Positions 34,058 to 60,376 of a DNA stretch of 64,000 nt are shown piece after piece. The position numbers and the translations under genes were made by a program. The DNA comes from Dehalococcoides mccartyi (lineage in GTDB: Bacteria; Chloroflexota; Dehalococcoidia; GIF9; DYGU01): contig DYGU01000005.1 in the NCBI GenBank assembly GCA_020724525.1, forward strand, positions 36,529 through 100,528, written 5' to 3'. Position 1 is the first letter of the stretch. The number at the start of each line of letters is the position of its first letter. A model generated the notes under the pieces. It saw only the letters and a list, made by a program, of their open reading frames with translations, searched no databases and was not told the DNA's origin.

Positions 34058-34060
34058 GAA

Positions 34061-36061: not shown

Positions 36062-36459
36062 GTCATGAACCCCGAATAGTTGGTTTCCTGTGCAATTGGT
36101 GCAGCTATGCCGGTGCCGACCTGGCTGGTACCAGTCGCATTACCTACCCAGCTAACATTCGTATTATTCGAGTTCCCTGCTCAGGGCGAGTCGACCCTCT
36201 ATTTGTGGTCAAATCATTTCAACTGGGGGCTGACGGAGTGTTGATTGCCGGGTGTCATCCCGGTGACTGCCACTATACTGAAGGCAATTACCATACTCGT
36301 CGCCGCTTTGCCCTGCTGCGCCCATTTCTGGATTATTTGGGCATTGACCAGGAACGCTTTAGGTTAGAATGGGTCTCTGCTTCAGAAGGCAAAAAATTTT
36401 CAGAAGTTGTTGCCGACTTCACCGAGACTCTAAAAAGAATAGGACCGAGAGAAATATGA
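36052..36459 (+). CDS. MvhD/FlxD-like iron-sulfur subunit, cluster 1
   Basis: GFLCNWCSYAGADLAGTSRITYPANIRIIRVPCSGRVDPLFVVKSFQLGADGVLIAGCHPGDCHY. Confidence 0.93.
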   Translation: MAVSHEPRIVGFLCNWCSYAGADLAGTSRITYPANIRIIRVPCSGRVDPLFVVKSFQLGADGVLIAGCHPGDCHYTEGNYHTRRRFALLRPFLDYLGIDQERFRLEWVSASEGKKFSEVVADFTETLKRIGPREI

Positions 36460-38293: not shown

Positions 38294-38294
38294 A

Positions 38295-39128
38295 ATGATG
38301 TCAATTAATCCCTTTATCCCCTATCAAGCTACCTTAAAAGAAGTAATAAATCTGACACCAGATATTAAGCTCCTTAACTTAGAGCTAACTGTCCCGGAAC
38401 TTCAGAATAACTTTGACTATAAGCCGGGTCAATTTGCTTTCCTTTCTGCTTATGGAGTTGGCGAAGCACCTTTTGGCTTTGTTTCCTTAGCCTATCGTAA
38501 GTCTGGAATAGAATTTGCTGTAAGGCGCATCGGCACTGTGACTGCTGCTCTCCACGAACTTGAGCCGGGGGCAACGATAGGTTTAAGAGGACCTTTTGGT
38601 AATTATTTCCCTTTAGAGGACTACAAGGGCAAAAATATTTTCATTATTGGAGGTGGCATTGGGATGGCACCCTTGCGTCCTGTTATTAACTTCATTCTTG
38701 ACCATCGGGCTGAGTATGGTAACCTCCTTATCATAAACGGAGCCCGAACCCCAAAAGATTTAGTCTTCGCTAACGAATTTGATACTTGGGCAAAAGCACC
38801 GCGAACTCAATTAGAACTCACAGTAGATAAAGGCGACCAAAACTGGAAGGGGAGGGAAGCTTTAGTTCCAGCCGTGGTCACCGAACTCAAACCATCACCT
38901 GTAAATACCATTGCCATCACTTGCGGACCTCCGATTATGATCCGCTTCACCCTTGCTGCCCTTAAAGGATTAGGCTTTGCTAATAACCAAATAGTTACTA
39001 CTCTGGAACAAAAAATGAAATGTGGTATGGGCAAGTGCGCCCGATGTAATGTTGGCGATAAATATGTTTGCAAAGATGGACCGGTATTTACTTTTGAACA
39101 AATTTCTAAATTCCTCGAACAATATTAA
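38295..39128 (+). CDS. FAD/NAD(P)-binding sulfhydrogenase-gamma/AsrB-like protein (FlxA-like)
   Basis: KPGQFAFLSAYGVGEAPFG; GPFGNYFPLEDYKGKNIFIIGGGIGMAPLRP; CGPPIMI; C-terminal EQKMKCGMGKCARCNVGDKYVCKDGPVF. Confidence 0.88.
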   Translation: MMSINPFIPYQATLKEVINLTPDIKLLNLELTVPELQNNFDYKPGQFAFLSAYGVGEAPFGFVSLAYRKSGIEFAVRRIGTVTAALHELEPGATIGLRGPFGNYFPLEDYKGKNIFIIGGGIGMAPLRPVINFILDHRAEYGNLLIINGARTPKDLVFANEFDTWAKAPRTQLELTVDKGDQNWKGREALVPAVVTELKPSPVNTIAITCGPPIMIRFTLAALKGLGFANNQIVTTLEQKMKCGMGKCARCNVGDKYVCKDGPVFTFEQISKFLEQY

Positions 39129-43959: not shown

Positions 43960-44454
43960 TCAGAAGTAGTTTTTTACTATATATTTGCAGACCTTGGGGA
44001 CAGCATCTTGAAGTTTTTTTGACAGTCCTGGCTTCACCGTTTCCGGTATGCATTCTGGCTGGACAGCAAGCAAGATCACCTCTACATGACACAAATCTCT
44101 CAGCTCTTTCAGTAGATTTGAGGTCGGCAGTTGGTGAACGGAGAAATCGTCAATTTTCCTCTCCGGGAGGTCTTCAACCGGCATAGTAAAAATCTCCCCA
44201 GGTGCCCTCTGGCAATCCAGGGCATCAACAACGATTATCCTCTTTGGCTTTTTTTCAGCAAGAGCAATGTTAACAAGTATTTCCCTTGCCCCTGTCCCTA
44301 CATCAAGAACACAGACGTCGTCGGGAATCTGAAAATGCTTTTCCAGATAGTTAATCACCGCCGGACCAAAGCCATCGTCACCGAAAAGTGTGTTGCCGCA
44401 GCCCAGTATAAGGGTAGACTTCTGATAGCATTCAGGGACATAATCCATAATCAA
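43960..44454 (-). CDS. NiFe-hydrogenase maturation protease
   Basis: LILGCGNTLFGDDGFGPAVINYLEKHF; VVDALDCQRAPGEIF. Confidence 0.9.
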   Translation of the reverse strand: MIMDYVPECYQKSTLILGCGNTLFGDDGFGPAVINYLEKHFQIPDDVCVLDVGTGAREILVNIALAEKKPKRIIVVDALDCQRAPGEIFTMPVEDLPERKIDDFSVHQLPTSNLLKELRDLCHVEVILLAVQPECIPETVKPGLSKKLQDAVPKVCKYIVKNYF

Positions 44455-45887
44455 TTCATCAAGGTATCAATTATTTCTCCTGCGGCATTCAAGATGTCAA
44501 TCTTTACCGCAATCCTGCCATCAAGCTCATGGGTAGCACAGGAAAAACAAGGGTCATAGGCACGGATTGACATTTCTATTTTGTTCAGCAATCCCTGGTC
44601 GTATACCCCATTTTTAATCAAATCAATAGCCGACCTTTTGACCGACATGTTTATCGGAGCATTATTGTGAGTTGTTCCCACGATAAGGTTACACTTGGTC
44701 ACGATGCCCCTGTCATCAGTCTCGTAGTCGTGGATGAGCGTCCCTCGAGGTGCCTCAACTGAGCCAACACCACGTGCCGCCCGGGGTGTAACCGCCTTCC
44801 ACGTATTGGGGTCTGTTATCTCCGGGTCATTCAAGAGCTCTATTGCCTTTTCGGCGGAATAAACTAATTCAATCAACCTTGCCCAGTGATAGAGCAAGGT
44901 TAGCTGGGCTGGACGACCGAAGTTGTTTCTGAATTCCTCCAGTTCCTTCTGGGCAAGTGGCGTAGGAATTCGGTCACAAACGTTAATCCTCGCCAGAGCG
45001 TTTACCCGATATATGCCCACCGGATTATCAAGAGTCATCGAGAACCGGCTCATTTTCTTGTAATACGGGAACTTAAGATAAGACCAGGGCTCCACATGCT
45101 CGCCAATATAATCCAGATAGTTCTCGGCAGGAAAATCCTCATATTTACCATCAGGCGTCATCAGGCGCAGATTTCCATCATAAAGGTTTAGCTCACCATC
45201 TTTAACTGTCCCCAAAAAACCAGTCTCAATAGTAGCCAATGACTTAACCACATCCAGATACTTTGGGAAAATTTCCTTCTTAGCAAAATCAATGGCAAAA
45301 GTGGCAAAATCAAGACATTCCTTTGCCATCTCCTTCAGTTGGTCTCGCTCCTTTTCGGTAAGGGGTTTACTCCAACCACCGGGGACGGAAACATCAGGGT
45401 GGATAGCTTTGCCACCAAGAGTCTGGGTCATCATCTGCCCCAGGTATCTTGCCCGGACTACCTGCTTGGCGATATTGGGAACTTTCTGGATTATGCCGAC
45501 TACATTTCTTATCGAATAGTCAGCCTCAGGTCCCATTACAAAGTCGGGTCCTGAAAGTATGAAGAAATGTAGTGTATGGCTGTGAATAAAATGAGCCATA
45601 TAGGCAAGTTCTCTGAGCTTTTTGGCGACTGGTGGAATGTCTACACCAAAAACAGCGTCGCATGCCTTAGCAGAAGCCAGATGATGTGCCCAGGGACATA
45701 CTCCACAAATACGGGGGACGATGCGAGGCAACTCCTCAACTGGTCTCCCAATAGCAAACTGCTCAAACCCCCTCAGTTCCGGAATATTTACCCTGGTATC
45801 GGCAACATTTCCCTGGTCATCAAGTTGAATAGTTATCTTGGCATGACCTTCAATCCGTGTAACCGGCTGAATAACAATCTGTTTCAT
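44451..45887 (-). CDS. mvhA: NiFe hydrogenase large subunit (MvhA-like, group 3)
   Basis: RICGVCPWAHHLASAKACDAVFG; C-terminal AYDPCFSCATHELDG with extension for protease processing. Confidence 0.95.
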   Translation of the reverse strand: MKQIVIQPVTRIEGHAKITIQLDDQGNVADTRVNIPELRGFEQFAIGRPVEELPRIVPRICGVCPWAHHLASAKACDAVFGVDIPPVAKKLRELAYMAHFIHSHTLHFFILSGPDFVMGPEADYSIRNVVGIIQKVPNIAKQVVRARYLGQMMTQTLGGKAIHPDVSVPGGWSKPLTEKERDQLKEMAKECLDFATFAIDFAKKEIFPKYLDVVKSLATIETGFLGTVKDGELNLYDGNLRLMTPDGKYEDFPAENYLDYIGEHVEPWSYLKFPYYKKMSRFSMTLDNPVGIYRVNALARINVCDRIPTPLAQKELEEFRNNFGRPAQLTLLYHWARLIELVYSAEKAIELLNDPEITDPNTWKAVTPRAARGVGSVEAPRGTLIHDYETDDRGIVTKCNLIVGTTHNNAPINMSVKRSAIDLIKNGVYDQGLLNKIEMSIRAYDPCFSCATHELDGRIAVKIDILNAAGEIIDTLMN

Positions 45888-45916
45888 CTTGTGCCTCCTT
45901 TTTTAACCTTAATTGT

Positions 45917-46840
45917 TTACCTTGCTGGCAGCGGTCTTAGGCGACCCACTACACCTATGAACCGGTTAAAAGTCGCCATCCTGTCTTCTATCTCTTTAGG
46001 GTCAAGCCCAATAGAAGACAGTGCGCCCATCATGTCGACCATGGGATTAGCGCCCTCTCGTATCGGACCAAAACAACCACGACAGGTCATATATGCCTTT
46101 ACACACCGAGGAATTTTTTCAGCGCCACCACAACCAGTCCTTGTCGCCGGTCCCTGACAGAGAAAACCTTGCTCCATAAAACAGCGTATCTCCTCAAACT
46201 TCTGCCCTGGGGTGAATTCAACCTTTTCTAAGGGTCTTTTTAATTTGGTGACTGCCTTTTTCTCCCTTTTCACCGGGCAGTCATCGCAAACACTGCGCTC
46301 AGCAAGAGAAAAGAGCTTACCTTCTAAGAGGCAGGTTAAAGCCTCAGCGACTAACTCAGGGGTAGTCGGGCAACCAGGCAAACCTACGTCAATCTTAACC
46401 ACTTCGCTCACTGAATACACACGGTCCTTAAGCGGTGGGATATCAACTGTGGGATTATCGGCAGGGTCGGTGCTTTTGGTTTGTCGATAGACCATGTCCA
46501 ATATTTGGCTGGTAGTATACATATTTGCCAGTGCCGGGACCCCACCAAAATTGGCACAGGAGCCAAGGGCGATTAATGTCTTGCATTTCTTTCTCATCTC
46601 CTCCGCTATATGCTTGTTCTCTTCGTTTCGTATACCCCCAGTTATTATCCCCACATCCGCCTCCGGGATTTCTAATGCTGTCTTTTCTCCGGTTTGCCCA
46701 TAGTATTTATGGTCCATCTGGACAGGCATATGCACAAATTCCAGTTTCGGCAGCAATTCCAGAAGCGCCTCTCCCAGGTCTAAGATTGCTACCTCACAAC
46801 CACCACATGTTGCTAACCACTCTTCAGCGACTCGTACCAT
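45917..46840 (-). CDS. mvhG: NiFe hydrogenase small subunit (MvhG-like)
   Basis: TCGGCEVAILDLGE; GSCANFGGVPALANM; GLPGCPTTPELVAEAL; CRGCFGP. Confidence 0.95.
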   Translation of the reverse strand: MVRVAEEWLATCGGCEVAILDLGEALLELLPKLEFVHMPVQMDHKYYGQTGEKTALEIPEADVGIITGGIRNEENKHIAEEMRKKCKTLIALGSCANFGGVPALANMYTTSQILDMVYRQTKSTDPADNPTVDIPPLKDRVYSVSEVVKIDVGLPGCPTTPELVAEALTCLLEGKLFSLAERSVCDDCPVKREKKAVTKLKRPLEKVEFTPGQKFEEIRCFMEQGFLCQGPATRTGCGGAEKIPRCVKAYMTCRGCFGPIREGANPMVDMMGALSSIGLDPKEIEDRMATFNRFIGVVGRLRPLPAR

Positions 46841-46868
46841 TTTTAACCTCCTTTTCTTAGCTTTGAAT

Positions 46869-47171
46869 TCAGGATTTTAACTTTTTAATCAGATCTAAAA
46901 CCTCTTCCAGTTTGTCTATAAGGCTTTTTAGTGGCCCCCAGGGAAGAGCAACAACCCTTTCCCTCGGGTTCTTGCCCTCCTTGGTTTCGCTCTCTTTCCG
47001 TTGAATAATCTCAGTAATAGCCATGGCATACAAAATTTGCTCCTCTTTATCTTCCTTATCAGCAAGACACTTTAGCAGTGGTAAAAGAGATTGTTCGTTT
47101 TTCAAGATTTGCTCAATATTCGGCTTTATTTTATTTACTTTATCCCGAAATTCTTTTATCTTTTCCTCCAT
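46869..47171 (-). CDS. hypothetical helical protein
   Basis: 100 aa, charge-rich helical composition, co-directional within the Mvh/Hdr cluster. Confidence 0.55.
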   Translation of the reverse strand: MEEKIKEFRDKVNKIKPNIEQILKNEQSLLPLLKCLADKEDKEEQILYAMAITEIIQRKESETKEGKNPRERVVALPWGPLKSLIDKLEEVLDLIKKLKS

Positions 47172-47191
47172 CTCCTTCCCTTCTTAAACTT

Positions 47192-47404
47192 TTACTTTTT
47201 TAATAAAGGGCATTCCCTTTTAAGAGCTTCTAAAGACTTTTCTACCTCCCCAAGCCTTTTCCCATGGTAACCTAAAGACTTCTCTGTCTCCTCGAGCCTT
47301 TTCTCATGATAATTTACAACCTTAGTTATGCCTCCCAAACGAAACGCAATCCATAACAGCACAGCTAAGTTCACAACTGCTAATCCTAAATTAGCCCATT
47401 CCAT
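47192..47404 (-). CDS. small protein: N-terminal TM helix plus coiled coil with internal repeat
   Basis: LGLAVVNLAVLLWIAFRLG; YHEKRLEETEKSLG / YHGKRLGEVEKSLE tandem 14-aa repeat. Confidence 0.6.
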   Translation of the reverse strand: MEWANLGLAVVNLAVLLWIAFRLGGITKVVNYHEKRLEETEKSLGYHGKRLGEVEKSLEALKRECPLLKK

Positions 47405-47416
47405 CTTTACCTTCCT

Positions 47417-47617
47417 TTAGACTGGCTTTCCTTCAACTACAACTTCTTTAACTACCCTTCGGGTGAACAGGAAAAATTGGTTCCCCTCTTCAACCAACTC
47501 AACCTCAAATCCGTCATCTTTATATTTTTGAGCGATTCCCCTCCATTCTATCTCATCAGTGTAGACCCTTCCGTCCCACATAAACTTTTTACCGCTAAAT
47601 ATTCGCGCTAACTCCAT
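47417..47617 (-). CDS. hypothetical small protein
   Basis: 66 aa ORF between co-directional genes. Confidence 0.5.
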   Translation of the reverse strand: MELARIFSGKKFMWDGRVYTDEIEWRGIAQKYKDDGFEVELVEEGNQFFLFTRRVVKEVVVEGKPV

Positions 47618-47631
47618 TTGAAATTTTCACC

Positions 47632-48048
47632 TCAGGTTTTATAAGGGCTAGGACCTAACTCCTTGATTTTCTCCGTCATTTCGGTTATTACCTGAGCGAA
47701 TCTACTCCCTTCTGAGGCAGAGACCCATTCCAACCTGAACCTTTCTTCCTCAATACCAAAGTCCTGTAGCATAAGTTTAATTGCCTCCGCTCGCTTCTCC
47801 GCTTTTAAGTTCCCCTCCAGGTAATGACAGTCCCCAGGGTGACATCCACACATCAATACACCGTCAGCCCCTTTAGTTAAGGCATCCATCACTAAATTGG
47901 GATGAACCATGCCGGAGCACATCACCCTGATTATACGTATATTGGGTGGATACTGCATTCTGGAGACACCAGCTAAATCCGCCCCAGCGTAGGAACACCA
48001 GTTGCAGCAGAAGCCTATGATTAGCGGTTCAAAAGTTTCCTTAGCCAT
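47632..48048 (-). CDS. mvhD: MvhD-like hydrogenase iron-sulfur subunit, cluster 2
   Basis: GFCCNWCSYAGADLAGVSRMQYPPNIRIIRVMCSGMVHPNLVMDALTKGADGVLMCGCHPGDCHY. Confidence 0.95.
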   Translation of the reverse strand: MAKETFEPLIIGFCCNWCSYAGADLAGVSRMQYPPNIRIIRVMCSGMVHPNLVMDALTKGADGVLMCGCHPGDCHYLEGNLKAEKRAEAIKLMLQDFGIEEERFRLEWVSASEGSRFAQVITEMTEKIKELGPSPYKT

Positions 48049-48053
48049 TTTTC

Positions 48054-51000
48054 TTATCCTATCCCAAGCGCAGCCTCAACCATTGCCGCTATTTGCTCAG
48101 GCTTGAATCCTTTAACAAATATGCCTTTCTTTGGGCAAGTGGCTTGACACACACCACACCCTTTGCAGGCGGTTTCATCAACTTCTACGGTCTTCTTTAC
48201 TACTCCATCTTTCATATATTCAATCAAGGTTATAGCTTTAAATGAGCAGGGGTCAACGCAGTAGGCGCAACCATCACAGTTTTCGTCAACCACGAAGGAA
48301 AGTGTAGCCCCAAGTCCAATTTCATCTCGGGAAATTATAGTGGTGGCGCGGGCGGCAGCAGCACACGCTTGAGCAATGCTCTCGCCTATTGTCTTTGGCG
48401 AGTGGGCAAGACCACAAAGGAAAATACCCTCGGTGGCAAAATCTACAGGTCGAAGTTTCAAATGAGCTTCGAGAAAGAACCCATTCTGGTTAAGGGGGAT
48501 TTTTAACATCTGAGCAAGGTCTTTATTATTCTTGTTAGCTACAATAGCCGGGGAAAGGACAAGCAGGTCGGTATTGATAAGTAAGTTCGCATCAAGGATA
48601 GGGTCCCTCACTTTTACTTTCAATCCTCTCCCGTCCTCGGAAACCTCGGGCTTTTGGTCCTCATCGTAGCGAATGAATATTATTCCCTTCTCTCGAGCCT
48701 TCTGATAATACTCTTCCTTAAATCCGTAAGTCCTTATGTCTCGAAAAAGGACATATACTTCGGTATTTGGGCTGCTCTCTTTGATTTTTAAAGCATTTTT
48801 AATTGCTTGAGAACAGCAAATTCGGCTGCAATAAGCTCTATCGCCCTCACGAGAACCAACACATTGAATCATCACCACCCTCTTGGCATTCGATACGCCA
48901 GAAGAAAGCCTTTCCTCAAACTCGCGCTGGGTGAGGACCTTCCCATTTTTACCATATAGATATTGGTCGGGCTTCCACTCCTCAGCTCCGGTTGCTACAA
49001 TTATAACCCCGTGGTTTATTGTTTTTACTGCGCCCTCCTTCCCATTTAAGGTAGAGGTGAAGTCCCCAAATGACCCCTCTACTTTGGAAAGCGTAGTATT
49101 AGTATAAACTTTGATTTTCCCGTTCTGATTTACCTTTTCAATAAGTTCAGCCAGTCTTTGCTGCGGGTCATCGCCGTCAAGCAAGTAGCGCACATGACGC
49201 AAGTTCCCACCGAGTTCTGGCTCTTTCTCGACTAAGTGGGTTTCGAACCCTTGCTCTGCAAGTTGGAGAGCTGCGGTCATTCCAGATAAGCCACCGCCAA
49301 TAACCAGAGCGGCTTTATTTACAGTTAGGGTTCTGCCGTAAAGGGGCTCAAGCAATCTCGATTTGGCAACTGCCATCCTGACTAAATCCTTTGCTTTTTT
49401 AGTGGCTTCTTTTGGTTGGGTCATATGAACCCAGGAGCACTGCTCCCTTATATTTGACATTTCAAAGAGATAGGGGTTCAAGCCCCCCTCTCGGATTGTA
49501 TCTCGAAATAGTGGTTCGTGAGTCCTTGGCGTACAAGAGGCGACAACAATTCTATTTAAGTTATGCTCCTTTATTTTGTCTACGATTATACGTTGGGTAT
49601 CTTCGGAGCAGGTATATAAATTCTCCTCAGCATAAATAACCCCCGGAAGAGTCTTGACATACTCTACAACTGAGGGAACATCCACAATACCACCTATATT
49701 TATCCCACAGCGGCATATAAAGGCGCCAATCCTTGGCTCCTGACCAGTTACATCGATCTCGGGAGGGTATTCTTTCTTTGTTACTAAACTGCCTCGTGAG
49801 GCTGCCAATAATTCGCCTGCCTTCCCGGCAGCCCCGGAAGCTTGCATTACAGTCTCCGGTATGTCCTTTGGTCCAGTAAAGGCACCACAGACAAATATGC
49901 CGGGCTTATTAGTCTCAATCGGGGAAAGTTCGGCTGTATTGCAGAAGCCATAATTGTTTAGCTCAATTCCGAGCTTGGCAGCCAGCTCTTTTACCCCTTC
50001 CTTGGGCACTAATCCGACTGAAAGCACAACCAGGTCAAATTCTTCGCTTCTAATTTTCCCCTTTTCATCCTCGTAGCGTACTCGCAGGTTCTGGGACTCT
50101 GGAACTTCCACTATTTCTGAAACCCGGCACCTTATAAACCTGACCCCGTATTCCTTTTTAGCTCGCTCATAATATTCCTCAAACCCCTTTCCATAAGTCC
50201 TCATGTCCATAAAAAATATGGCAGTCTCCAGCCCGTTTTGAGCATGCTCTTTGGCAACTATTGCCTCTTTAATGGCATAGGTGCAGCAGACTGATGAGCA
50301 ATAGTTATTTCCTAAAGGAATATCTCTTGAGCCAACGCACTGGATGAAGGCTATCTTTTTTGGTTCTTTGCCATCGGATAATCTGCATAAATGACCCTGG
50401 AATGGCCCGGAAGGTGAAAGGATCCTTTCAAATTGAACTGAAGTTACAACATTTTTATATCTGCCATATCCGTATTCACCTTTTATCCTGGGATCAAACT
50501 TATCATACCCGGGGGCTAAAATGATTGCCCCCACTTCAAGCTCAACTATCTCCTCCACCATATCATGATTGATTGCTTGAGCCTGGCAGTTCTTTAAACA
50601 CTCAAGGCACTCTGAGCACACGCCACAGTTTAAGCAGCGCTTGGCTTCTTCAATAGCTGTCTTCTCATCAAAGCCAAGCTCAACTTCGGCAAAGAAGCTT
50701 ACCCGTTTCTGAGTATCTAACAAAGGCATAGCGCCCCTTGCCTTCTTTTTGACCCCCTCCTTTGATACCTCCTTTACCTTTTTAGGCTGGGTTGGTCTCC
50801 CTTCCTTTAAGTCTACTCCTGTGAGGTAGCGATCTACAGAGATCGCTGCTTCCTTACCGGCAGCAATAGCAGCAATAACATCAGCCGGTCCAGAAACCAC
50901 ATCACCACCGGCAAAAACACCATCAATGTTGGTTTGGAGTGTAAGTGGGTCAACAGACAGAGTACCCCAGGCCGTATAGGCAAGCTCTTTAGGTAGTGCC

Positions 51001-52484
51001 TCTTTGTCTATACCCTGGCCGATGGCGATGATCAGGTTGTCGACATCCATCGTGAATTGTGAGCCTTCGATTGGTATTGGGCGACGCCGCCCAGAGGCAT
51101 CAGGCTCCCCCAATTTCATCTTGATGCATTCTATGCCGGTTAGTTGACCATCTCTCGCTAAGACCTGGACCGGTGCCGCCAGGAAATGTATCCTCACTCC
51201 CTCCCTCTCTGCCTCCTTGAGCTCGCTGGGGATAGCTGGCATCTCAGCTCGGGAGCGGCGATAGACGACGGTAACCTCCTTTGCCCCTAAGCGTAAAGCC
51301 ACCCTGGCACTATCAATAGCGGCATTGCCGCCCCCGATAACGGCTACGCGGTTCCCTAACTCTACTCTCTCTCCAGAGTTCACCTGCTTCAGGAAGCTGA
51401 GGGCGTGGATTACTCCTCTGGTGTCTTCACCGGGAATGCCCATCTTCAGGCTTGTCTGAGCACCGGAGGCTAAGAATATGGCTCTGTATCCCTGGTTGAA
51501 GATCTCTACAAGACTCTTTACCGGGGTACCTGTCTTTATCTCCACCCCTAATTCTTGTATGTATCCAATCTCATTATCTAACACTGCTTTAGGCAAGCGA
51601 TATTCGGGGATGCCATAACGCAAAAGCCCACCTGGTTCAGAGAGGGACTCAAAGACAGTTACTGGGTAGCCTTCCCTAACTAGGTCATAAGCACAAGCAA
51701 GCCCAGCCGGTCCGGAGCCGATGACGGCTACTTTTGCCTCGTTTGTCCTCTTGATGGCGGGTGCCTTCTCTCTCCCCACCTTCAGCTCATAGTCGGAGAT
51801 AAAGCGTTTTAGAGAGCGAATGGCTATGGGCTCATCAACTTTCCCCCTTTCACAGTCTATCTCACAGGGGTGAGTGCATACTCGCCCACAAACGGCGGCG
51901 AAAGACATGGCTCTTCTCACAACCTCTAACGCCTCCTTAAACTTGCCCTGGGAGATGAGGGCAATATAGCCTTGGGCATTCACACCAGCGGGACAAGCAA
52001 CCCGGCAGGGTGGGTAGCCTTTTTTGTCGACGGCAAAAGCATTGGGGACACCCTGGGGAAAGAGCCGATAAATTGCTTTTCTCTTACTCAATCCCTGGTC
52101 AAACTCAGAAGCTCTCTCTACAGGGCATACTTTGGCACATTCTCCACACGCGGTGCATTTATTAATATCGACATATCTGGACTTCTTCCTGTTTTCTACT
52201 TTGAAGTTCCCGGCAGAACCCTCTACTCCCTCCAGTTCAGAGTAAGGCAAAAGCTCAATATTAGGGTGTCTGGCACTGTCTATTAGTTTTGGAGCCATGA
52301 TGCACATGGCACAGTCATTGGTAGGGAAAGTTTTATCCAACTGAGCCATTACCCCACCAATACCTGGTTTCTCTTCTAATAGATAGACTTTATACCCGGA
52401 TTCGGCTAAATCTAAAGATGCCTGTATCCCACCAATGCCACCACCAACAACCAAAACGGCACCTACTTTTTTGTTATCAGACAT
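48054..52484 (-). CDS. giant HdrA - GltD-like (FAD/NAD(P)H oxidoreductase) - HdrA fusion protein
   Basis: HdrA FAD site VVGGGIGGIQASLDLAESGYKVYLLEEKPGIGGVMAQLDKTFPTNDCAMCIMAPK; GltD-like PPCRVACPAGVNAQGYIALI and VAVIGSGPAGLACAYDL, VAVIGGGNAAIDSARVA; second HdrA-like IGAFICRCGINIGGIVDVP and LVIGGGLSGMTAALQLAEQGF; C-terminal ferredoxin. Start placed at MSDNKKVGAV. Confidence 0.9.
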   Translation of the reverse strand: MSDNKKVGAVLVVGGGIGGIQASLDLAESGYKVYLLEEKPGIGGVMAQLDKTFPTNDCAMCIMAPKLIDSARHPNIELLPYSELEGVEGSAGNFKVENRKKSRYVDINKCTACGECAKVCPVERASEFDQGLSKRKAIYRLFPQGVPNAFAVDKKGYPPCRVACPAGVNAQGYIALISQGKFKEALEVVRRAMSFAAVCGRVCTHPCEIDCERGKVDEPIAIRSLKRFISDYELKVGREKAPAIKRTNEAKVAVIGSGPAGLACAYDLVREGYPVTVFESLSEPGGLLRYGIPEYRLPKAVLDNEIGYIQELGVEIKTGTPVKSLVEIFNQGYRAIFLASGAQTSLKMGIPGEDTRGVIHALSFLKQVNSGERVELGNRVAVIGGGNAAIDSARVALRLGAKEVTVVYRRSRAEMPAIPSELKEAEREGVRIHFLAAPVQVLARDGQLTGIECIKMKLGEPDASGRRRPIPIEGSQFTMDVDNLIIAIGQGIDKEALPKELAYTAWGTLSVDPLTLQTNIDGVFAGGDVVSGPADVIAAIAAGKEAAISVDRYLTGVDLKEGRPTQPKKVKEVSKEGVKKKARGAMPLLDTQKRVSFFAEVELGFDEKTAIEEAKRCLNCGVCSECLECLKNCQAQAINHDMVEEIVELEVGAIILAPGYDKFDPRIKGEYGYGRYKNVVTSVQFERILSPSGPFQGHLCRLSDGKEPKKIAFIQCVGSRDIPLGNNYCSSVCCTYAIKEAIVAKEHAQNGLETAIFFMDMRTYGKGFEEYYERAKKEYGVRFIRCRVSEIVEVPESQNLRVRYEDEKGKIRSEEFDLVVLSVGLVPKEGVKELAAKLGIELNNYGFCNTAELSPIETNKPGIFVCGAFTGPKDIPETVMQASGAAGKAGELLAASRGSLVTKKEYPPEIDVTGQEPRIGAFICRCGINIGGIVDVPSVVEYVKTLPGVIYAEENLYTCSEDTQRIIVDKIKEHNLNRIVVASCTPRTHEPLFRDTIREGGLNPYLFEMSNIREQCSWVHMTQPKEATKKAKDLVRMAVAKSRLLEPLYGRTLTVNKAALVIGGGLSGMTAALQLAEQGFETHLVEKEPELGGNLRHVRYLLDGDDPQQRLAELIEKVNQNGKIKVYTNTTLSKVEGSFGDFTSTLNGKEGAVKTINHGVIIVATGAEEWKPDQYLYGKNGKVLTQREFEERLSSGVSNAKRVVMIQCVGSREGDRAYCSRICCSQAIKNALKIKESSPNTEVYVLFRDIRTYGFKEEYYQKAREKGIIFIRYDEDQKPEVSEDGRGLKVKVRDPILDANLLINTDLLVLSPAIVANKNNKDLAQMLKIPLNQNGFFLEAHLKLRPVDFATEGIFLCGLAHSPKTIGESIAQACAAAARATTIISRDEIGLGATLSFVVDENCDGCAYCVDPCSFKAITLIEYMKDGVVKKTVEVDETACKGCGVCQATCPKKGIFVKGFKPEQIAAMVEAALGIG

Positions 52485-52504
52485 CCTTGCTTCAACCCCC
52501 CCTT

Positions 52505-52738
52505 TTAACCGGCTAATAGTATTGCCAAAATTATGGTAACCCACATAGTAATGATAATAGCTACAGTCCATCTAAAATTACTCTGGAGGCGGTCCTCAAG
52601 GCGACCTATTCTGTCCTCAAGGCGACCCATCCTGTGCTCAAAGCTGCTTTCGAGATGATTGAGTCGGCTCCTCATTTCCTCAAGGATTCCCTCTATTTTC
52701 GCCACCCTAGATTCTAAAGTGGGATGCTCTTCATTCAT
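52505..52738 (-). CDS. small coiled-coil protein with C-terminal TM anchor
   Basis: RVAKIEGILEEMRSRLNHLESSFEHRMGRLEDRIGRLEDRLQSNFRWTVAIIITMWVTIILAILLAG. Confidence 0.65.
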   Translation of the reverse strand: MNEEHPTLESRVAKIEGILEEMRSRLNHLESSFEHRMGRLEDRIGRLEDRLQSNFRWTVAIIITMWVTIILAILLAG

Positions 52739-52985
52739 GTCCTTTTTGTCCTGTACCTCCCAGTTTTGTGAAACTGCTTTTTAACCAGCTAATAGTATTG
52801 CCAAAATTATGGTAACCCACATAGTAAGGATAATAGCTATTGTCCATCTAAAATTACTTTGGAGGCGATCCTCGAGGCGACCCATCCTGTGCTCAAAGCT
52901 GCTTTCGAGATGATTGAGTCGGCTCCTCATTTCCTCAAGGATTCCTTCTATCCTGGCAACCCTCGGTTCCAAAACAGGTTGCTCT
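52508..52985. repeat. tandem direct duplication (~200 nt per copy) of the coiled-coil/TM coding segment
   Basis: 52508-~52730 and 52784-~52985 are near-identical (e.g. CTAATAGTATTGCCAAAATTATGGTAACCCACATAGTAA.GATAATAGCTA). Confidence 0.85.
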
Positions 52986-53359
52986 TTTTTAGCTTCCCAA
53001 TAAAAATAGGCAATTCCTTTCTGCCTGGTAGCTTCTATTTCACCCGTGATTGGATTAACCTTAAGTCCCAGGGATTCCAGTGTCTGGACGCCAATAACAG
53101 CTTTTGCCCCGTCAAAACTAGCAGCTATAGCTGGTCCGTCTCTATCACCTATTGCTGCCCTTATGGCATAAGTCTCCGCCTCAACCACTTTTCCATCAGC
53201 CAATTCTAACGGAACCGTCCCTGGAATCTTGATAGCACCGATTTCTTCCAGTATCTCCTTCGGCAAAGTGGTAAAGGTAGCGCCGGTATCAACCAGAAGG
53301 TCCTTTAGCACAGCTTCTTTAGTCCAACGAACGATTAAATCAACATGAACATGTCTCAT
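52781..53359 (-). CDS. retropepsin-like (clan AA) aspartic protease domain fused to coiled-coil/TM tail
   Basis: LLVDTGATFTTLP active-site motif; C-terminus nearly identical to the 52505..52738 protein. Confidence 0.8.
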   Translation of the reverse strand: MRHVHVDLIVRWTKEAVLKDLLVDTGATFTTLPKEILEEIGAIKIPGTVPLELADGKVVEAETYAIRAAIGDRDGPAIAASFDGAKAVIGVQTLESLGLKVNPITGEIEATRQKGIAYFYWEAKKEQPVLEPRVARIEGILEEMRSRLNHLESSFEHRMGRLEDRLQSNFRWTIAIILTMWVTIILAILLAG

Positions 53360-53377
53360 ACTATACCTTCCGACAGC

Positions 53378-53770
53378 TTAGTGGTGGCCTCCTGTCAATT
53401 TTACTATCTTTTCAATGTATAAGTTTAGGTCATCTAAAAGAGTGGCTACTTCATCAAAGTCTAAGGAGCCCTCGTAGTAACCTTCAATATGGAATTGGTC
53501 TCTGAGGAAGAAATAATACGGTCTAAGCTCTTTTTCAAAATATTTATTGACCATAAACCTTCTTCCCCTGTCACCACCTTTGGGCAACTCTTCTTCTTTG
53601 ACCCCCTTCTGAGCCAGATAGGCATAGGTAGCTTCGATAGCAGAAAGCCAGCCTTTGGCACAAGCATTTCTTAAAGCGTCGCCATCCTTTTTCTCTTGCG
53701 CCTTTTCAAATTCCTCTTTTGCTTTCTGGTAAAGCTCTTTAGATTGTGCTAAATGATTGAAAGTCGCCAT
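53378..53770 (-). CDS. PaREP1/HEPN-like helical protein
   Basis: AQSKELYQKAKEEFEKAQEKKDGDALRNACAKGWLSAIEATYAYLAQKG...GRRFMVNKYFEKELRPYYFFLRDQFHIEGYYEG. Confidence 0.55.
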   Translation of the reverse strand: MATFNHLAQSKELYQKAKEEFEKAQEKKDGDALRNACAKGWLSAIEATYAYLAQKGVKEEELPKGGDRGRRFMVNKYFEKELRPYYFFLRDQFHIEGYYEGSLDFDEVATLLDDLNLYIEKIVKLTGGHH

Positions 53771-53974
53771 TTATAACAAGCTCAAAATTGCCACTCCAAA
53801 CCCTACTATTAGCCCAATCATGCTCCCTGATATCAAGAGAAATAGTCCCCTTAAGTTCCTTAATTCGCTCACAATAAATAATGCATCATCACTTATGTTT
53901 AATCCCTGACTTTCTGCTCCTTTCCTCGTCTTCTCTGTTTTCTCTTTGCCCACTGTTTTCCCTCCTACAGGCAC
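53771..53974 (-). CDS. small protein with C-terminal TM anchor
   Basis: LRNLRGLFLLISGSMIGLIVGFGVAILSLL. Confidence 0.55.
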   Translation of the reverse strand: MPVGGKTVGKEKTEKTRKGAESQGLNISDDALFIVSELRNLRGLFLLISGSMIGLIVGFGVAILSLL

Positions 53975-54034
53975 TGCCTGGCTTTCTTATTCTACTTCTT
54001 CTAAATAAATAATTCATAGTTTTCCTTTGGGCAT

Positions 54035-55084
54035 TTAAATTGCCTCCAAAACTAATTCTGAAACGCCCTTAATTTCAATGACATCAGCTTTATCCACAGT
54101 CAGAAGACTATTGTCGAAATTAAGCAAACAATAAGGGCACGCTGTTGCCAATATTTCTGCTCCAGCTTCGACCGCTTGTTCTAATCTTAAGTCGGAAAAC
54201 CTCTCACCTTTCCTGGTCTCCATCCATATTCTCCCGTCGCCACCGCCACAACATAAGCTATTTTCCCGGTAATCGGGCAATTCAATAAGCTTTAAGCCAG
54301 GTATACTGGCAAGAACTTGGCGAGGCTCCTCGTATACACCATTATGACGCCCAAGATAGCAGGGGTCGTGGTAAGCTACTTTCTTCTTTAGTTCTTTGTC
54401 GAACTTTAGCCTCTCACCCCTACTAAGCTGGGCTAAATACTGGGTATAATGGATTATCTCAAAATTGCCCTCAAGATCAGCGTACTCGTTTTTGAAAGCG
54501 TGGTAGCAGTGTGGGAAGCTGACCACAACCCTACGCACTCCCTGCTCCTTGAAAGCACTAATATTGGCTTGAGCTAAATTCCGGAAGAGAGCCTCATTTC
54601 CAGCTTTACGAACGCTCTCGCCACAACACTTCTCTACTGAGCCTAAGATGCCAAAGTTTACCCTTGCCTTATTAAAAACGCCAACCAAACTTTGGGCTGC
54701 CCTTTTCACTTTGAGGTCATAAGCAGGAATACAGCAAGAAAAATATAACAACTCTTTATCTGCGGTAAAACTGTTCACATTTAAGTCTCTTGCCCAATCG
54801 CCTCTCCTTAAAGCCCTCATTATGTTTATTATGTCTACACCCTGAGGGCAACGTTGAACACAGGCACGACAAGTAGCGCAAAGCCACCAGGCTTCATCAC
54901 CAAAGTCAACTAACCCCAGTTGTGCTTGGCGCATCAGCCTGCGGATGTCAAATTGCCTAACTTTATTCCAGGGGCAGCTACTAATACAAACGCCGCATTG
55001 TTCGCAGAGACGGAACGTTTCACCACCGGCTTCTTCGAGGAAGGCAACTGTGTCCAAGTCAACTGTCAAAATCTCACTGCCCAT
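54035..55084 (-). CDS. HdrD-like protein: dicluster ferredoxin plus two CCG (cysteine-rich) domains
   Basis: CEQCGVCISSCPWNKVRQFDIRRLMRQAQLG; LCATCRACVQRCPQGV; YFSCCIPAYD...KCCGES; DPCYLGRHNGVYEEPR...LCCGGGDG. Confidence 0.88.
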   Translation of the reverse strand: MGSEILTVDLDTVAFLEEAGGETFRLCEQCGVCISSCPWNKVRQFDIRRLMRQAQLGLVDFGDEAWWLCATCRACVQRCPQGVDIINIMRALRRGDWARDLNVNSFTADKELLYFSCCIPAYDLKVKRAAQSLVGVFNKARVNFGILGSVEKCCGESVRKAGNEALFRNLAQANISAFKEQGVRRVVVSFPHCYHAFKNEYADLEGNFEIIHYTQYLAQLSRGERLKFDKELKKKVAYHDPCYLGRHNGVYEEPRQVLASIPGLKLIELPDYRENSLCCGGGDGRIWMETRKGERFSDLRLEQAVEAGAEILATACPYCLLNFDNSLLTVDKADVIEIKGVSELVLEAI

Positions 55085-55100
55085 AGTAACCCTTTCTCAT

Positions 55101-55970
55101 TTAGCTTCGTTGCAAAGAATGAACCAATTCCATCGGGGATATGAGGTTTCTTTCCAATCCCAACTCTTTCACCCTATATCCAAAGGCAAGCCCCATCAAT
55201 TGGGTAAAATAAAGGATGGGCATGTCCAAATTCACCTTGTATTTAGACTCTACTTTTGGATACAAAGTTTCCAAGGCCATATGACACATAGGACAGGCTA
55301 CAACAATACATTGAGCACCCCAATCTTTGGCTCCAATGAGGATGCTCTTTGTCATCTCTATGGTTAGTTCCTCATTGGGTAGTAATAGTGCCCCGCCACA
55401 GCACTTTGTCTTATATGGGAAAGGAACACTTTGACCCCCTAAAGCAGTAATTATTTCATCCAAAGACTGCGGGCAATCGGGGTTGTCGAAATGATAAAAC
55501 TGGGAAGGTCTAACAACTACACAGCCATAGTAGCAAGCGACTCGTAAACCATTGAGAGACCTCTTTAAGTTCCCTTTAATCTTTTCAATCCCAGCTTCAT
55601 TAACAAGCACATCCAAAAGATGTCTAACGTCTAAATCTACAACCGCCTGCTGTTCGATTATCTCACTGACCTCCCGCTTTAGCTTTTCATTGCCGTTTAA
55701 CTCTTTTTTAACCCTGACATGCGCAAGTAGGCAAGCACTGCAGGGCATAATGACTTTTTGGAACTCTTTGGCAGCAATAGATAAATTCCGGGCGGGAAGG
55801 GCGAGTGCCAAGAGGTGACTGAGAGAGGCTGCCTCAAAAGCACCACAACAATTCCAATCCTTTATTTCCTGTAACTCTATGCCAAGGCTACCCGAGATCA
55901 AATGGGCAGATAAATCATATTCTTTGGCTGATGAGTGGAGCGAACATCCTGGGTAATATCCGATTTTCAT
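55101..55970 (-). CDS. hdrB: heterodisulfide reductase subunit B-like (HdrB), cluster 2
   Basis: YYPGCSLHSSAKEYDLS...DWNCCGAFE; CYYGCVVVRP...TKCCGGALLLPNEE...CPMCHMALE. Confidence 0.93.
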   Translation of the reverse strand: MKIGYYPGCSLHSSAKEYDLSAHLISGSLGIELQEIKDWNCCGAFEAASLSHLLALALPARNLSIAAKEFQKVIMPCSACLLAHVRVKKELNGNEKLKREVSEIIEQQAVVDLDVRHLLDVLVNEAGIEKIKGNLKRSLNGLRVACYYGCVVVRPSQFYHFDNPDCPQSLDEIITALGGQSVPFPYKTKCCGGALLLPNEELTIEMTKSILIGAKDWGAQCIVVACPMCHMALETLYPKVESKYKVNLDMPILYFTQLMGLAFGYRVKELGLERNLISPMELVHSLQRS

Positions 55971-56560
55971 CTCTCTTCTCGTTCTTCTATCTTCTTGAAT
56001 ATGCGTTTAACCGCTGCTGTGCCACCTCTAGAGGGCGATATGGGCACTTTACCCTTTCTGTACAGCTTTATTCCTAAAGGGGCATAAGCCAAAATACCTT
56101 TAAAATCCTTTTTCCTAAGAAAGAACTTCAAACTTAATCCGGGTTCCCAAAGCCTGCCATAATCTTTGACTGTTTCAAGGAAGGAATGGGCAAACAAGAA
56201 ATTGGGGGCTCTTATCACGTTTTTCTTCTTCTTTAGCTCACGAATAGCAATATTTCTAATGGCGTGAATTATTGAGGTAAACCTGACATCCTGGGGGCAC
56301 CTTTCATAGCAGAGATAGCAATTGCAGCATATCCAAATAAAATCGGAAGAGAGCACTTCCGATTTTATACCGAGGAGTGCCATCCGAATTATCTTGCGAG
56401 GGTTGAATCTGTCGTCGATTTCGGTTATGGGGCAACTGGCGGAACAGGTTCCACAAGCAAAACATCTTTTTATGTTTTCACCCCCGGGTTGACAAGCAAT
56501 TTCCTCCCGAAAGTTAAAATCTAATTCGTTAAGAACTAGAATATCTGTTTTGGTTGTCAT
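55967..56560 (-). CDS. hdrC: heterodisulfide reductase subunit C-like (HdrC), cluster 2
   Basis: CFACGTCSASCPITEIDDRFNPRKIIRMALLGIKSEVLSSDFIWICCNCYLCYERCPQDVRF; start at MTTKTDIL. Confidence 0.9.
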   Translation of the reverse strand: MTTKTDILVLNELDFNFREEIACQPGGENIKRCFACGTCSASCPITEIDDRFNPRKIIRMALLGIKSEVLSSDFIWICCNCYLCYERCPQDVRFTSIIHAIRNIAIRELKKKKNVIRAPNFLFAHSFLETVKDYGRLWEPGLSLKFFLRKKDFKGILAYAPLGIKLYRKGKVPISPSRGGTAAVKRIFKKIEEREER

Positions 56561-56704
56561 GTTCCCTCCGGTGTTATCCCTTGCACATAGGTACCGCTGA
56601 ACAGTTACCTTTTTCTCTCCTCCCACATCATTATATTATATATACTATATAACAACTAAAACTTTTTGCCAAGAGGTAGATAATATGGTGATTAGCAATT
56701 CACC

Positions 56705-56776
56705 GTCTCCTGTGTGCCTAAAACAAATACAATTAACTTCTTTAAGTCTTTGAATTGGGCACCGATACAACCTATG
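56705..56776 (+). pseudogene. decayed fragment of an MvhD-like domain, paralogous to 58388-58458
   Basis: tcctgtgtgcctaaaacaaatacaattaacttctttaag.tctttgaattgggcaccgatacaacct vs ccctgtgtgtctaaaataaacataactaacttccttaaagcatttgagttgggcgctgatacagtcct. Confidence 0.7.
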
Positions 56777-57093
56777 TCATCTAAAGGAGTCTTGGCAAGA
56801 ACTTCGGCAAAGATTATAATATCTCTTGAAGGGAAAGGAAGACAGCAATGATTAAAGAGATACTCCTTATATCTGCCTTGCCGCAGCTATTGTCTGTTTT
56901 GTGACTATGTATTTAATACCTCGCTTAAATCGCCGTAAAAAGCCAAATAAGATTAAGAGTCAAGGAGAACTCTTGATACGGCTTGAGGAGTGCATGATAC
57001 TGATTGAGGAGCGCACTGGTCTGATGATACCGCTTCAGTTAACCCTCATCGGGGCGGTGCTCCTTACTTGAAAGGTCTGAGACGGTCTGGAGC

Positions 57094-58680
57094 GTGTCCC
57101 TAATAACCCAAATCGGGGAACACGGAGAAGTTCTCCCCCCGTGCCAGGCAGCTTGCCCGGCTGGGGTTAGAGCCCGAGATTATATAGCTTTAATTGCCCA
57201 AGGTTACTTTTTAGATGCCATAACCTTAATAAGGGAGCACATGCCTTTCCCCTCCGCCTGTGGGCGAATCTGTCAGCATCCCTGCGAAACAGAATGCAAC
57301 CGCCGCTTCCTCGATGATGCCGTAAACATAATGCACTTAAAGCGTTTCGCCTCTGACTACGAGTTCCAAGTTAAACCCCCTTTACCAAAACCACTACCAA
57401 AAACAAGAACTGAAAAAGCGGCTATTATCGGTGCCGGTCCCTGTGGATTGACTGCTGCCCAGGACCTTGTCAAATTAGGCTACCCGGTAACTATTTTTGA
57501 GGCACTGCCGTACGCTGGCGGTACTCTCAGAATTGCCCTGCCCGGTTATCGGCTCCCCCGCGAATTACTTGACTGGGATATTCAAAACATCCTCGCCTTA
57601 GGTATTGAACTACACACCAGCACTGCTTTAGGCAAAAACGTTTCTCTATCCGAACTAAAAGAAGATAACTATAAAAGCATCTTCTTTGCCACGGGAAGTG
57701 ACCGAAGTCACAAGATAACCAACATAGAAGCCAGGCTTATTGGAGAAGGTGATTTAATTTCAGGCACGGTGTTGACTGTTCATGCTGTTGGTGCCGGTCA
57801 TAAAGCAGCTACAATCATTGACCATTATCTGACAGGAAAGTCTCTTCCAACTAGCCAACCACCGCTTATAACCCGGTTGGAAATAAGCGAAATTGAAAAA
57901 AGAGTAAAAGAGAAGCAAGTTAATCTATACCCCCGTAGTCCTATGCCTGTTTGGGAAGGCAAAAAGACCAGTCTGGGTTTTCTGGAGATGGACTTGGGCT
58001 ATGACGAGGAGACAGCCCTTAAAGAAGCTAATCGGTGTCTAAGTTGTGGTGCTGCTGAGATAATAAAAGATAAATGTCCAACCTGTTTGACCTGCCTTCG
58101 ACTTTGCCCCTACCAAGCCCCAAGACTCACTTCCGCCAGTTTGGTAGAAATACAAAGCCATCTCTGCCGCTCTTGTGGATTGTGCGTTGGTGAGTGTCCG
58201 GCTAATGCTATAGCCTTTACCATGCCCGGTCTCAAAGACATAAACTGGCGGATAGAAAGAGCCTTAATCCCAATACTCAGAACCGAGCCAAAAATACTCA
58301 GCTTCTACTGTAGCTATCGGCTATGTTCGGTTGCTACTTACACCCAGCTCCTAAAAACAAAGCCAGATAATTTAGCCATGATTATTGTCCCCTGTGTGTC
58401 TAAAATAAACATAACTAACTTCCTTAAAGCATTTGAGTTGGGCGCTGATACAGTCCTGGTGACTGCCTGTCTTGAATCGGATTGCCCTTATCAGCATACT
58501 ATGTTTTGGCTACAACGCCGGATAGAGAGTGCTAAAAACATCCTCAAACAATTAGGCTTGGGTAACAAACAACTATTGATGTATAATTTAGCTGGTAATG
58601 AAATGATAGAATTTGACAAAATAAAGCAATTAGTCAACAAAGAACGTGAACTTCAAAGCGTCAAAGAGGAGACAGAGTAG
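57094..58680 (+). CDS. GltD-like flavoprotein lacking a recognisable NAD(P)H domain, fused to ferredoxin and MvhD-like domain (metVF-associated; GTG start)
   Basis: PPCQAACPAGVRARDYIALIAQG; AAIIGAGPCGLTAAQDLVKLGYPVTIFEALPYAGGTLR; CLTCLRLCPYQAP, CRSCGLCVGECPANAI; SFYCSYRLCSVATYTQ...ELGADTVLVTACLESDCPYQ. Confidence 0.87.
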   Translation: MSLITQIGEHGEVLPPCQAACPAGVRARDYIALIAQGYFLDAITLIREHMPFPSACGRICQHPCETECNRRFLDDAVNIMHLKRFASDYEFQVKPPLPKPLPKTRTEKAAIIGAGPCGLTAAQDLVKLGYPVTIFEALPYAGGTLRIALPGYRLPRELLDWDIQNILALGIELHTSTALGKNVSLSELKEDNYKSIFFATGSDRSHKITNIEARLIGEGDLISGTVLTVHAVGAGHKAATIIDHYLTGKSLPTSQPPLITRLEISEIEKRVKEKQVNLYPRSPMPVWEGKKTSLGFLEMDLGYDEETALKEANRCLSCGAAEIIKDKCPTCLTCLRLCPYQAPRLTSASLVEIQSHLCRSCGLCVGECPANAIAFTMPGLKDINWRIERALIPILRTEPKILSFYCSYRLCSVATYTQLLKTKPDNLAMIIVPCVSKINITNFLKAFELGADTVLVTACLESDCPYQHTMFWLQRRIESAKNILKQLGLGNKQLLMYNLAGNEMIEFDKIKQLVNKERELQSVKEETE

Positions 58681-58686
58681 AGTTCC

Positions 58687-59367
58687 ATGATTACCGGTAA
58701 ACAAAAACCATTAGAAGAAATACAAAGGTTAATTGAACCATACCGTAAAGTTCTAATTTTAGGTTGTGGAACCTGTGTTACTATCCGCTATTGTGGCGGT
58801 GAAAAAGAAGTCGCTACCCTTGCCTCAGCATTACGACTTTCAGAAGGGATGAGAAATAACCCCAGAACTTTTATTGAGTATACCATCAAGCGGCAATGCG
58901 AACAGGAATTTTTAGATGAGATAACTGACAAGGTCAAAAAAGTAGATGCCGTCCTATCTTTGGCTTGTGGTGTCGGTGTGCAAGCTTTGGCTGAACAGTT
59001 TCCCTTAGCTATTGCCTTACCCGGGATTAACACCACCTTTATAGGAAGACCTGAAGAGCTGGGAGTTTTGAGTGAAAGATGTCTGGCTTGTGGGGATTGT
59101 GTCATAGGTTTAACCGGAGGCATCTGCCCTATCACCCGATGTGCCAAGAGTCTATTCAATGGACCTTGTGGCGGCTCTGTAAATGGAAAGTGTGAAATTT
59201 CGCCGGATATTCCCTGCGCCTGGCAATTAATTTATGACCGAATGGCAAAACTTAATCTCCTTGATAAACTGGTTGAAATCCAACCACTCCGAAACTGGAG
59301 CAGCAGCCACTCCGGAGGACCACGAAGAATTGCCAGAGAGGACTTAAAGCTACCAGGTACGGGCTAA
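58687..59367 (+). CDS. metV: MetV, methylene-THF reductase-associated zinc/iron-sulfur subunit
   Basis: LILGCGTCVTIRYCGGEKEVATLASAL; CLACGDCVIGLTGGICPITRCAKSLFNGPCGGSVNGKCEI. Confidence 0.9.
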   Translation: MITGKQKPLEEIQRLIEPYRKVLILGCGTCVTIRYCGGEKEVATLASALRLSEGMRNNPRTFIEYTIKRQCEQEFLDEITDKVKKVDAVLSLACGVGVQALAEQFPLAIALPGINTTFIGRPEELGVLSERCLACGDCVIGLTGGICPITRCAKSLFNGPCGGSVNGKCEISPDIPCAWQLIYDRMAKLNLLDKLVEIQPLRNWSSSHSGGPRRIAREDLKLPGTG

Positions 59368-59428
59368 ATTAAGTCTATGGTAACAGCAGCCATGAAATCT
59401 AAGAAAATCAATTGCTTCTCAGCCGTTT

Positions 59429-60376
59429 ATGAAATTGCTAAAGGCAGAGGTGGTGGCAATGAAAGCCGGAACTAACTTGGAAAAAGTATTAGAAAGCGGC
59501 GCCTTCGCTGTGACCGCTGAAATCGGTCCCCCTAAAGGAACAGCAGCCCGAGTTGTGCAACGAAAAGGTGAGACCCTCAAGCCCTATGTGGATGCCGTAA
59601 ATGTAACCAATAATCAAACGGCTATTGTCCGGATGTGTAGCTTAGCCAGTTGTGTTATCCTCAAACAATTAGGATTAGACCCGGTAATGCAAATAGTGTG
59701 TCGGGATAGAAATAGAATTGCTATTCAAAGTGACATCCTCGGAGCTGTAGCTTTGGGCATCGGCAATATTTTATGCCTTAGTGGTGACCATCAAAAACTG
59801 GGCAATCAACCCGATGCTAAAGGTGTTTTTGACCTTGATTCTATCCAGCTAATTCAAGTAGTGAAAAAACTACGAGATGAGAAGAAGCTCATATGCGGAG
59901 AGGAGATTTCTGGTGAAGCTCCTCTATTTATTGGTGCTGCTGAAAACCCCTATGCCGACCCGTTCGAATATAGAGTGGTCAGATTATTGAAAAAGGTGAA
60001 GGCGGGGGCTGACTTTATTCAGACACAAGCTATTTACGATGTATCCAAATTTGCCCAGTGGATGGAATTGGTCAGGGACAAGGGGCTTGACCAGCAAGTC
60101 CATATTTTAGCTGGAGTAATACCTACGAGGTCAGCAGGTATGGCTCGCTATATGCGCGACTATGTTGCCGGGGTTTATGTACCAGATGAATTAGTTACCA
60201 GAATGGAAGTCGCCCGTGATGCCAAGGAGGAGGGAGTTAAAATATGCTTAGAAATCATTGAGCAGATTAAAGAAATCCCCGGAGTTCACGGAGTCCATAT
60301 TATGGCAGTAGGCTGGGAGGATATTGTCCCTGCTATTGCTGAGCGTGCCGGTCTATTACCAAGACCAATAGGATGA
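59429..60376 (+). CDS. metF: methylenetetrahydrofolate reductase MetF
   Basis: FAVTAEIGPPKGTAA; NVTNNQTAIVRMCSLA; LCLSGDHQ; ADFIQTQAIYDV; AGVIPTRSAGMARYM. Confidence 0.93.
   Translation: MKLLKAEVVAMKAGTNLEKVLESGAFAVTAEIGPPKGTAARVVQRKGETLKPYVDAVNVTNNQTAIVRMCSLASCVILKQLGLDPVMQIVCRDRNRIAIQSDILGAVALGIGNILCLSGDHQKLGNQPDAKGVFDLDSIQLIQVVKKLRDEKKLICGEEISGEAPLFIGAAENPYADPFEYRVVRLLKKVKAGADFIQTQAIYDVSKFAQWMELVRDKGLDQQVHILAGVIPTRSAGMARYMRDYVAGVYVPDELVTRMEVARDAKEEGVKICLEIIEQIKEIPGVHGVHIMAVGWEDIVPAIAERAGLLPRPIG

Follow-up and report, generated by a model that had tools for sequence, protein, structure and literature searches.

The window analysed here is a 64,000-nucleotide stretch of Dehalococcoides mccartyi DNA (positions 36529-100528 of its contig), taken from a 1.34-Mb genome that is 98% complete in 25 contigs. 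Domain scans of the window proteins called three Hdr/Mvh/MetVF modules, with family matches well past the chance level (mostly E 1e-18 to 1e-146). The module of main concern encodes a MetV-MetF methylene-tetrahydrofolate reductase (MTHFR) and a 528-amino-acid (aa) GltD-MvhD fusion from which the NAD(P)H-binding domain is missing and which is proposed to be the electron adaptor of the reductase. The fusion gene (57094-58680, + strand) has matches to the Pfam families Fer4_20, Fer4 and FlpD and a partial match to Pyr_redox_2, and its product runs from an N-terminal iron-sulfur domain through the FAD fold and a ferredoxin-like domain to the FlpD/MvhD domain. It is followed after 6 bp by metV (58687-59367, +; PF12225, E 8e-36) and, after a further gap of 61 bp, by metF (59429-60376, +; PF02219, with AEIGPPKG and LSGD motifs). 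The scans bore out the original prediction of a MetV-MetF pair with its own GltD/MvhD-like fusion.

The counterparts of this fusion beside metVF in other genomes have 690-740 aa. When the window protein was aligned to homologues of about 700 aa, it showed one clean in-frame gap of about 165-170 residues, which coincided exactly with the NAD(P)H-binding Rossmann domain, so that both FAD half-folds are joined directly to each other. A phmmer comparison with a solved Nfn-ABC subunit (9bov_A) matched residues 7-206 to 93-291 and residues 209-369 to 462-624, placing the junction between residues 206 and 209 (57709-57720, +). The Rossmann domain that lies between the FAD halves in GltD/NfnB-type proteins is thus absent from the fusion, while it is present in the GltD part of the HdrA described below. 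The cofactor ligands were retained. The fusion keeps the FAD motifs GxGxxG (GAGPCG...) and GD (IGEGD), six N-terminal cysteines and ten cysteines in the ferredoxin region. The four cysteines of its FlpD/MvhD domain (58294-58629, +; Pfam and cysteine comparison) are invariant in 29 standalone MvhDs. An AlphaFold2 model from a 31-row alignment reached a predicted local distance difference test (pLDDT) score of 76, with most of the FAD fold above 90 and a weak junction; an earlier model from a 6-row alignment was poor (pLDDT 51). In a Foldseek search with the fusion model, NfnABC and StnC came first. The reduced flavoprotein of the original prediction is, more precisely, a GltD-type FAD protein minus its NAD(P)H domain. 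The 528-aa fusion is the one unusual part of the region.

The short form was found over its whole length in one other genome, G169 (locus L106), which belongs to a different family and turned up in a draw of 393 genomes of the class; beyond the window's own copy, none was seen in 400 genomes of the phylum. L106 was about 50% identical to the window fusion overall and 65% identical in the N-terminal part. It also keeps the N-terminal and ferredoxin-like iron-sulfur (Fe-S) cysteines, the four FlpD cysteines and the GxGxxG motif for FAD, and its gene adjoins metV. The two short fusions were sisters in the tree (support 100/100). Because an independent genome of another family has the same form, the domain loss is neither fresh decay nor an assembly error, and the latter was ruled out on this ground. 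The deletion is thus old and has been retained, predating the split of the two families. G169 also carries HdrABC-like genes, and no VhuG/MvhG match was detected in it at E 1e-30. Since the short adaptor occurs there with Hdr complexes and no such match, a donor other than the Vhu hydrogenase must be workable.

Full-length GltD-MvhD with MetVF formed a recurrent unit among the relatives (L034-L038, L117, L119, L120, L122). These clusters have the order fusion-metV-metF as in the window, with fusions 33-40% and MetV about 53-63% identical to those of the window, but their fusions retain the NAD(P)H domain. Preference for NADPH or NADH is often governed by one site in this domain, and there the two clades (L034-L038 versus L117-L122) differ, one having YRR and the other CLE. 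Among all the relatives compared, MetV identity to the window protein ranged from 48 to 64%, and the nearest (60-64%) came from metagenome-assembled genomes (MAGs) of Chloroflexota, including Dehalococcoidia. The MetV tree joined the window with L118 (88/94), but its deeper branches were too poorly resolved to date the adaptor swap. A sequence search found no solved structure of a MetV relative. Several of the relatives' clusters are flanked by a histidine kinase with a LuxR-type response regulator and a receiver-domain protein (L034; L035-L038 by gene order; L218), and one metF of G169 lies between a histidine kinase and receiver-like proteins. These flanks suggest dedicated regulation of the reductase.

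The window metF was the only one found by family search in the whole genome. Fhs also has a single copy, which adjoins the sole convincing FolD (L200), and contig 2 carries a carbon monoxide dehydrogenase/acetyl-CoA synthase (CODH/ACS) operon with CdhA-, CdhB-, CdhC-, AcsC- and AcsD-type proteins. The Wood-Ljungdahl pathway (Fhs, FolD, CODH/ACS and MetF) is complete in the genome, and the original prediction, which had made its case depend on such genes elsewhere in the genome, stands in this respect. Because there is a single MetF among the complete pathway genes, the window MetVF is the only methylene-tetrahydrofolate (methylene-THF) reductase candidate of the genome. The CdhB-type protein of this operon (L201, contig 2, 74001-94000) is an epsilon subunit, and the operon also encodes a NuoG-type molybdopterin enzyme along with two NuoE/NuoF pairs, a gene content that points to NADH-linked formate or CO metabolism. 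No Rfam match was found between 40 and 64 kb of the window.

A hydrogenase-Hdr operon (module 2) diverges from the MetVF operon across about 467 bp. The single contiguous island originally proposed is thus correct in that the Hdr-Mvh and MetVF genes are adjacent, but they form two divergent operons rather than one. Promoter-like matches in the divergent gap exceeded those in shuffled sequence only slightly and were not used as evidence. Module 2 runs on the - strand from 56626 to 43960. It begins with HdrC (55967-56626), HdrB with two canonical CCG motifs (55101-55970), and an HdrD-like protein with an Fe-S dicluster and two CCG domains, of which only the second has the canonical motif (54035-55084). 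After two unrelated small open reading frames (ORFs) come the giant HdrA (48054-52571) and MvhD (47632-48048; PF02662, E 3e-58) and, after further small ORFs, the hydrogenase small subunit MvhG/VhuG (45917-46840), the large subunit MvhA/VhuA with the Ni-ligand motifs RICGVC and DPCFSC (44451-45887), and a HycI-type maturation protease (43960-44454; PF01750). The domain scans confirmed the identities first assigned to the Hdr and Mvh genes. The MvhA Ni ligands, MvhG, MvhD, HdrA and the two CCG motifs of HdrB together characterize an Mvh/Vhu-HdrABC system, and MvhA was the only [NiFe]-hydrogenase large subunit found by family search in the genome. The ORFs that interrupt the operon (52781-53770 and 46869-47631) encode an aspartic-protease-like protein carrying a hydrophobic helix at its C-terminus, a 130-aa product without a family and a 100-aa product; no relatives of them were seen in the neighbouring operons of the relatives that were examined.

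The window VhuG was 62-76% identical to its closest homologues in the class, and 70-76% identical to those of several small genomes. The operon matches the arrangement HdrC-HdrB-HdrA(~1009 aa)-MvhD-MvhG-MvhA-HycI of six loci (L223-L228). Five of these (L224-L228), mostly from single-contig genomes of 1.7-2.1 Mb, share gene order, a VhuG identity of about 70-76% and the HdrA group with the window. However, their HdrA of about 1009 aa has no GltD, and no metVF is adjacent. These genomes are probably Dehalogenimonas, in which Vhu hydrogenases have been reported (PMC13390414). Elsewhere in the class, clusters of the form HdrD-HdrA-GltD-MvhD-MvhG-MvhA were also present (L233, L237). An HdrD next to Mvh and HdrA is common there, so the extra HdrD-like subunit, one member of the combination first described as unusual, is ordinary.

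With the first ATG as its start the window HdrA has 1505 aa; a start at the next in-frame ATG would shorten it to about 1476 aa. A GltD unit is inserted at approximately residues 181-660 (50592-52031, -; PF14691/PF07992/PF00070); residues 186-659 aligned to 9bov_A, and the NAD(P)H-binding Rossmann domain is intact, with the motif GGGNAAIDSARVALRLGA...YRRSRAEMPA. This is the Moorella or type IV architecture. The Moorella HdrA of the metVF cluster has been published with 1487 aa, a GltD within its first TrxR-like domain, and then MvhD-like, TrxR-like and ferredoxin domains (PMC9430772). Given this Moorella precedent, any novelty of the giant HdrA (1477 aa in the original prediction) was dismissed. 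Dozens of GltD-HdrA-MvhD-MetVF operons were seen, frequently in Chloroflexota. Operons combining GltD-HdrA, MvhD, MetVF and HdrCB were also present in Rhodospirillales and Kiloniellales MAGs (L167, L171, L172, L176), for which a role in oxidative C1 metabolism is a natural guess. In the HdrA-backbone tree, the window HdrA joined the Vhu-hydrogenase-linked HdrAs (support 100/99), whose operons are without metVF, and stood apart from the MetVF-linked HdrAs. Because of this grouping, module 2 need not serve MetVF exclusively, and its strict dedication to MetVF is a weakened proposal. Loss of GltD in the lineage with HdrA of about 1009 aa would be the simpler reading of the tree, because GltD-containing HdrAs surround that group.

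The remaining module (module 1; 32613-39128, +) is an NADH-type HdrCBA-FlxDBCA set in the order HdrC, HdrB, HdrA (666 aa), FlxD, FlxB, FlxC and FlxA, preceded by hypA/B and followed by hypF/D/E. FlxA-D are encoded together with HdrABC. This module had been placed with the other two inside 43960-60376; modules 2 and 3 do lie within that range, whereas the Hdr-Flx module is real but located outside it.

MetVF enzymes do not themselves contain a site for NADH, and in vitro they can be supplied by reduced ferredoxin; type III and IV MTHFRs gain the use of NADH through extra subunits (PMC8760232). The type IV system HdrCBA-MvhD-MetVF of Moorella thermoacetica and Sporomusa ovata (PMC9430772, PMC8760232) has MetV, MetF, HdrCB, MvhD and a GltD-inserted HdrA of about 1500 aa in common with the window, and the resemblance to Moorella-type acetogens first noted was substantiated to this extent. 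The window differs in that hdrCBA-mvhD, although adjacent to metVF, lies in a divergent operon, in the GltD-MvhD adaptor that accompanies MetVF, and in the Vhu hydrogenase and HdrD-like subunit added to the Hdr operon. The partner gene is GltD-MvhD instead of the RnfC2 of type III (MetVF-RnfC2), and the presence of the fusion gene just upstream of metV separates the window from type II, which has MetVF only. GltD-MvhD-MetVF falls outside the four published MTHFR types, and full-text searches of open papers (text without figures) returned no description of it. The hdrABC-mvhD-metVF cluster of the marine Chloroflexi genome DscP3 (PMC5736913) shares the phylum, a Moorella-type cluster and the Wood-Ljungdahl pathway with the window. 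DscP3 differs in that a hydrogenase was not detected among its genes and in that its HdrC and HdrB form one fused protein. The available text of that paper makes no mention of a short adaptor; the legend of its Fig. 2 mentions Pyr_redox_2 and FlpD domains in related clusters. The HdrL of Desulfobacterium autotrophicum (PMC2702500), an HdrA/glutamate-synthase fusion followed by MvhD, resembles the window HdrA-MvhD, but lies beside sulfite reductase or formate dehydrogenase genes and not MetVF.

For the electron routes, partners and direction we infer the following. In the full-length fusions of the relatives, electrons would pass from NAD(P)H to the FAD and Fe-S clusters, and on to MetV and MetF. 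In the window adaptor the NAD(P)H entry is closed at the canonical site, and the electron source has probably been swapped. The likeliest donors are reduced ferredoxin or an Hdr complex, whose electrons would come in via the FlpD [2Fe-2S] and ferredoxin-like clusters and then reach MetV and MetF through the retained FAD and the N-terminal Fe-S domain. Module 2, as a Vhu-type hydrogenase-HdrABC, would bifurcate electrons of H2 (and NAD(P)H) to give reduced ferredoxin, and so supply the reductase indirectly. A MetVF reductase served by a GltD-MvhD adaptor without an NAD(P)H domain, its donor now being ferredoxin or an Hdr complex, is the reading we tentatively prefer, at close to even confidence. 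Several points weigh against it. The use of ferredoxin by MetVF has been deemed energetically wasteful on H2 + CO2 (PMC8760232), and no biochemical data on any GltD-MvhD-MetVF enzyme were found in the open literature. The ferredoxin-like region of the AlphaFold2 model was poor, with residues 321-378 below 50. In L106 the second FAD motif has lost its Asp, which leaves FAD binding by this protein uncertain, and L106 is not beside metF, as the metF genes of G169 are on other contigs. Finally, the adjacency of MetVF to module 2 could mean direct coupling.

Such coupling would extend the model of the original prediction: Vhu-Hdr with its GltD-HdrA and MetVF would form one bifurcating super-complex of a type IV-like kind, with the adaptor docked via FlpD, and electrons would flow from H2 and NAD(P)H to methylene-THF and ferredoxin. 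The two operons are divergent neighbours, the HdrA has the Moorella architecture, GltD-HdrA accompanies MetVF in many operons, and MvhD, HdrA and HdrB of S. ovata interacted with MetF in pull-downs (PMC9430772). The NAD(P)H site is also gone from the adaptor yet kept in HdrA. However, in the tree the window HdrA falls among Vhu-linked HdrAs from operons that lack metVF, G169 has the short adaptor but no Vhu MvhG match, the operons are separate, and an MvhD is already part of module 2. We therefore favour direct bifurcation by MetVF together with the adjacent Vhu-Hdr complex less, and consider the super-complex rather unlikely. Its more specific form has the adaptor docking via FlpD on Vhu-HdrA(GltD) and the pyridine nucleotide site handed to HdrA; the cytosolic super-complex, driven by H2, would reduce ferredoxin as well as methylene-THF, the latter serving as its high-potential acceptor. 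This would constitute a fifth MTHFR type, and seems somewhat less likely still.

An oxidative role in vivo, in which methyl-THF is oxidized and the electrons pass via Hdr to an acceptor such as quinone, is improbable. GltD-HdrA-MetVF operons do occur in MAGs of Kiloniellales and Rhodospirillales, groups not known for acetogenesis, and in vitro, with viologen, the MetVF reaction can be run both ways (PMC9430772), but the complete Wood-Ljungdahl pathway and the Vhu-type hydrogenase favour reduction, and methyl-THF oxidation onto ferredoxin is strongly uphill. Slightly more doubtful still is the notion that the fusion is a decaying remnant and that MetVF, as a type II enzyme, needs nothing but ferredoxin, as the missing catalytic domain and the FAD Asp lost in L106 might suggest. 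The domain was lost before the two families separated, and the cluster ligands and the open frame nevertheless persist at about 50% identity.

What donates electrons to MetVF reductases, and what partners those of the Hdr type, is a live question in the energetics of acetogens (PMC8760232, PMC13040438). The GltD-MvhD-MetVF arrangement is recurrent in Chloroflexota, and it provides a matched natural pair, in which one form of the MetVF adaptor has the NAD(P)H domain and the other does not. A comparison of these two would directly reveal which of pyridine nucleotide, ferredoxin and an Hdr complex delivers electrons to MetV-MetF.

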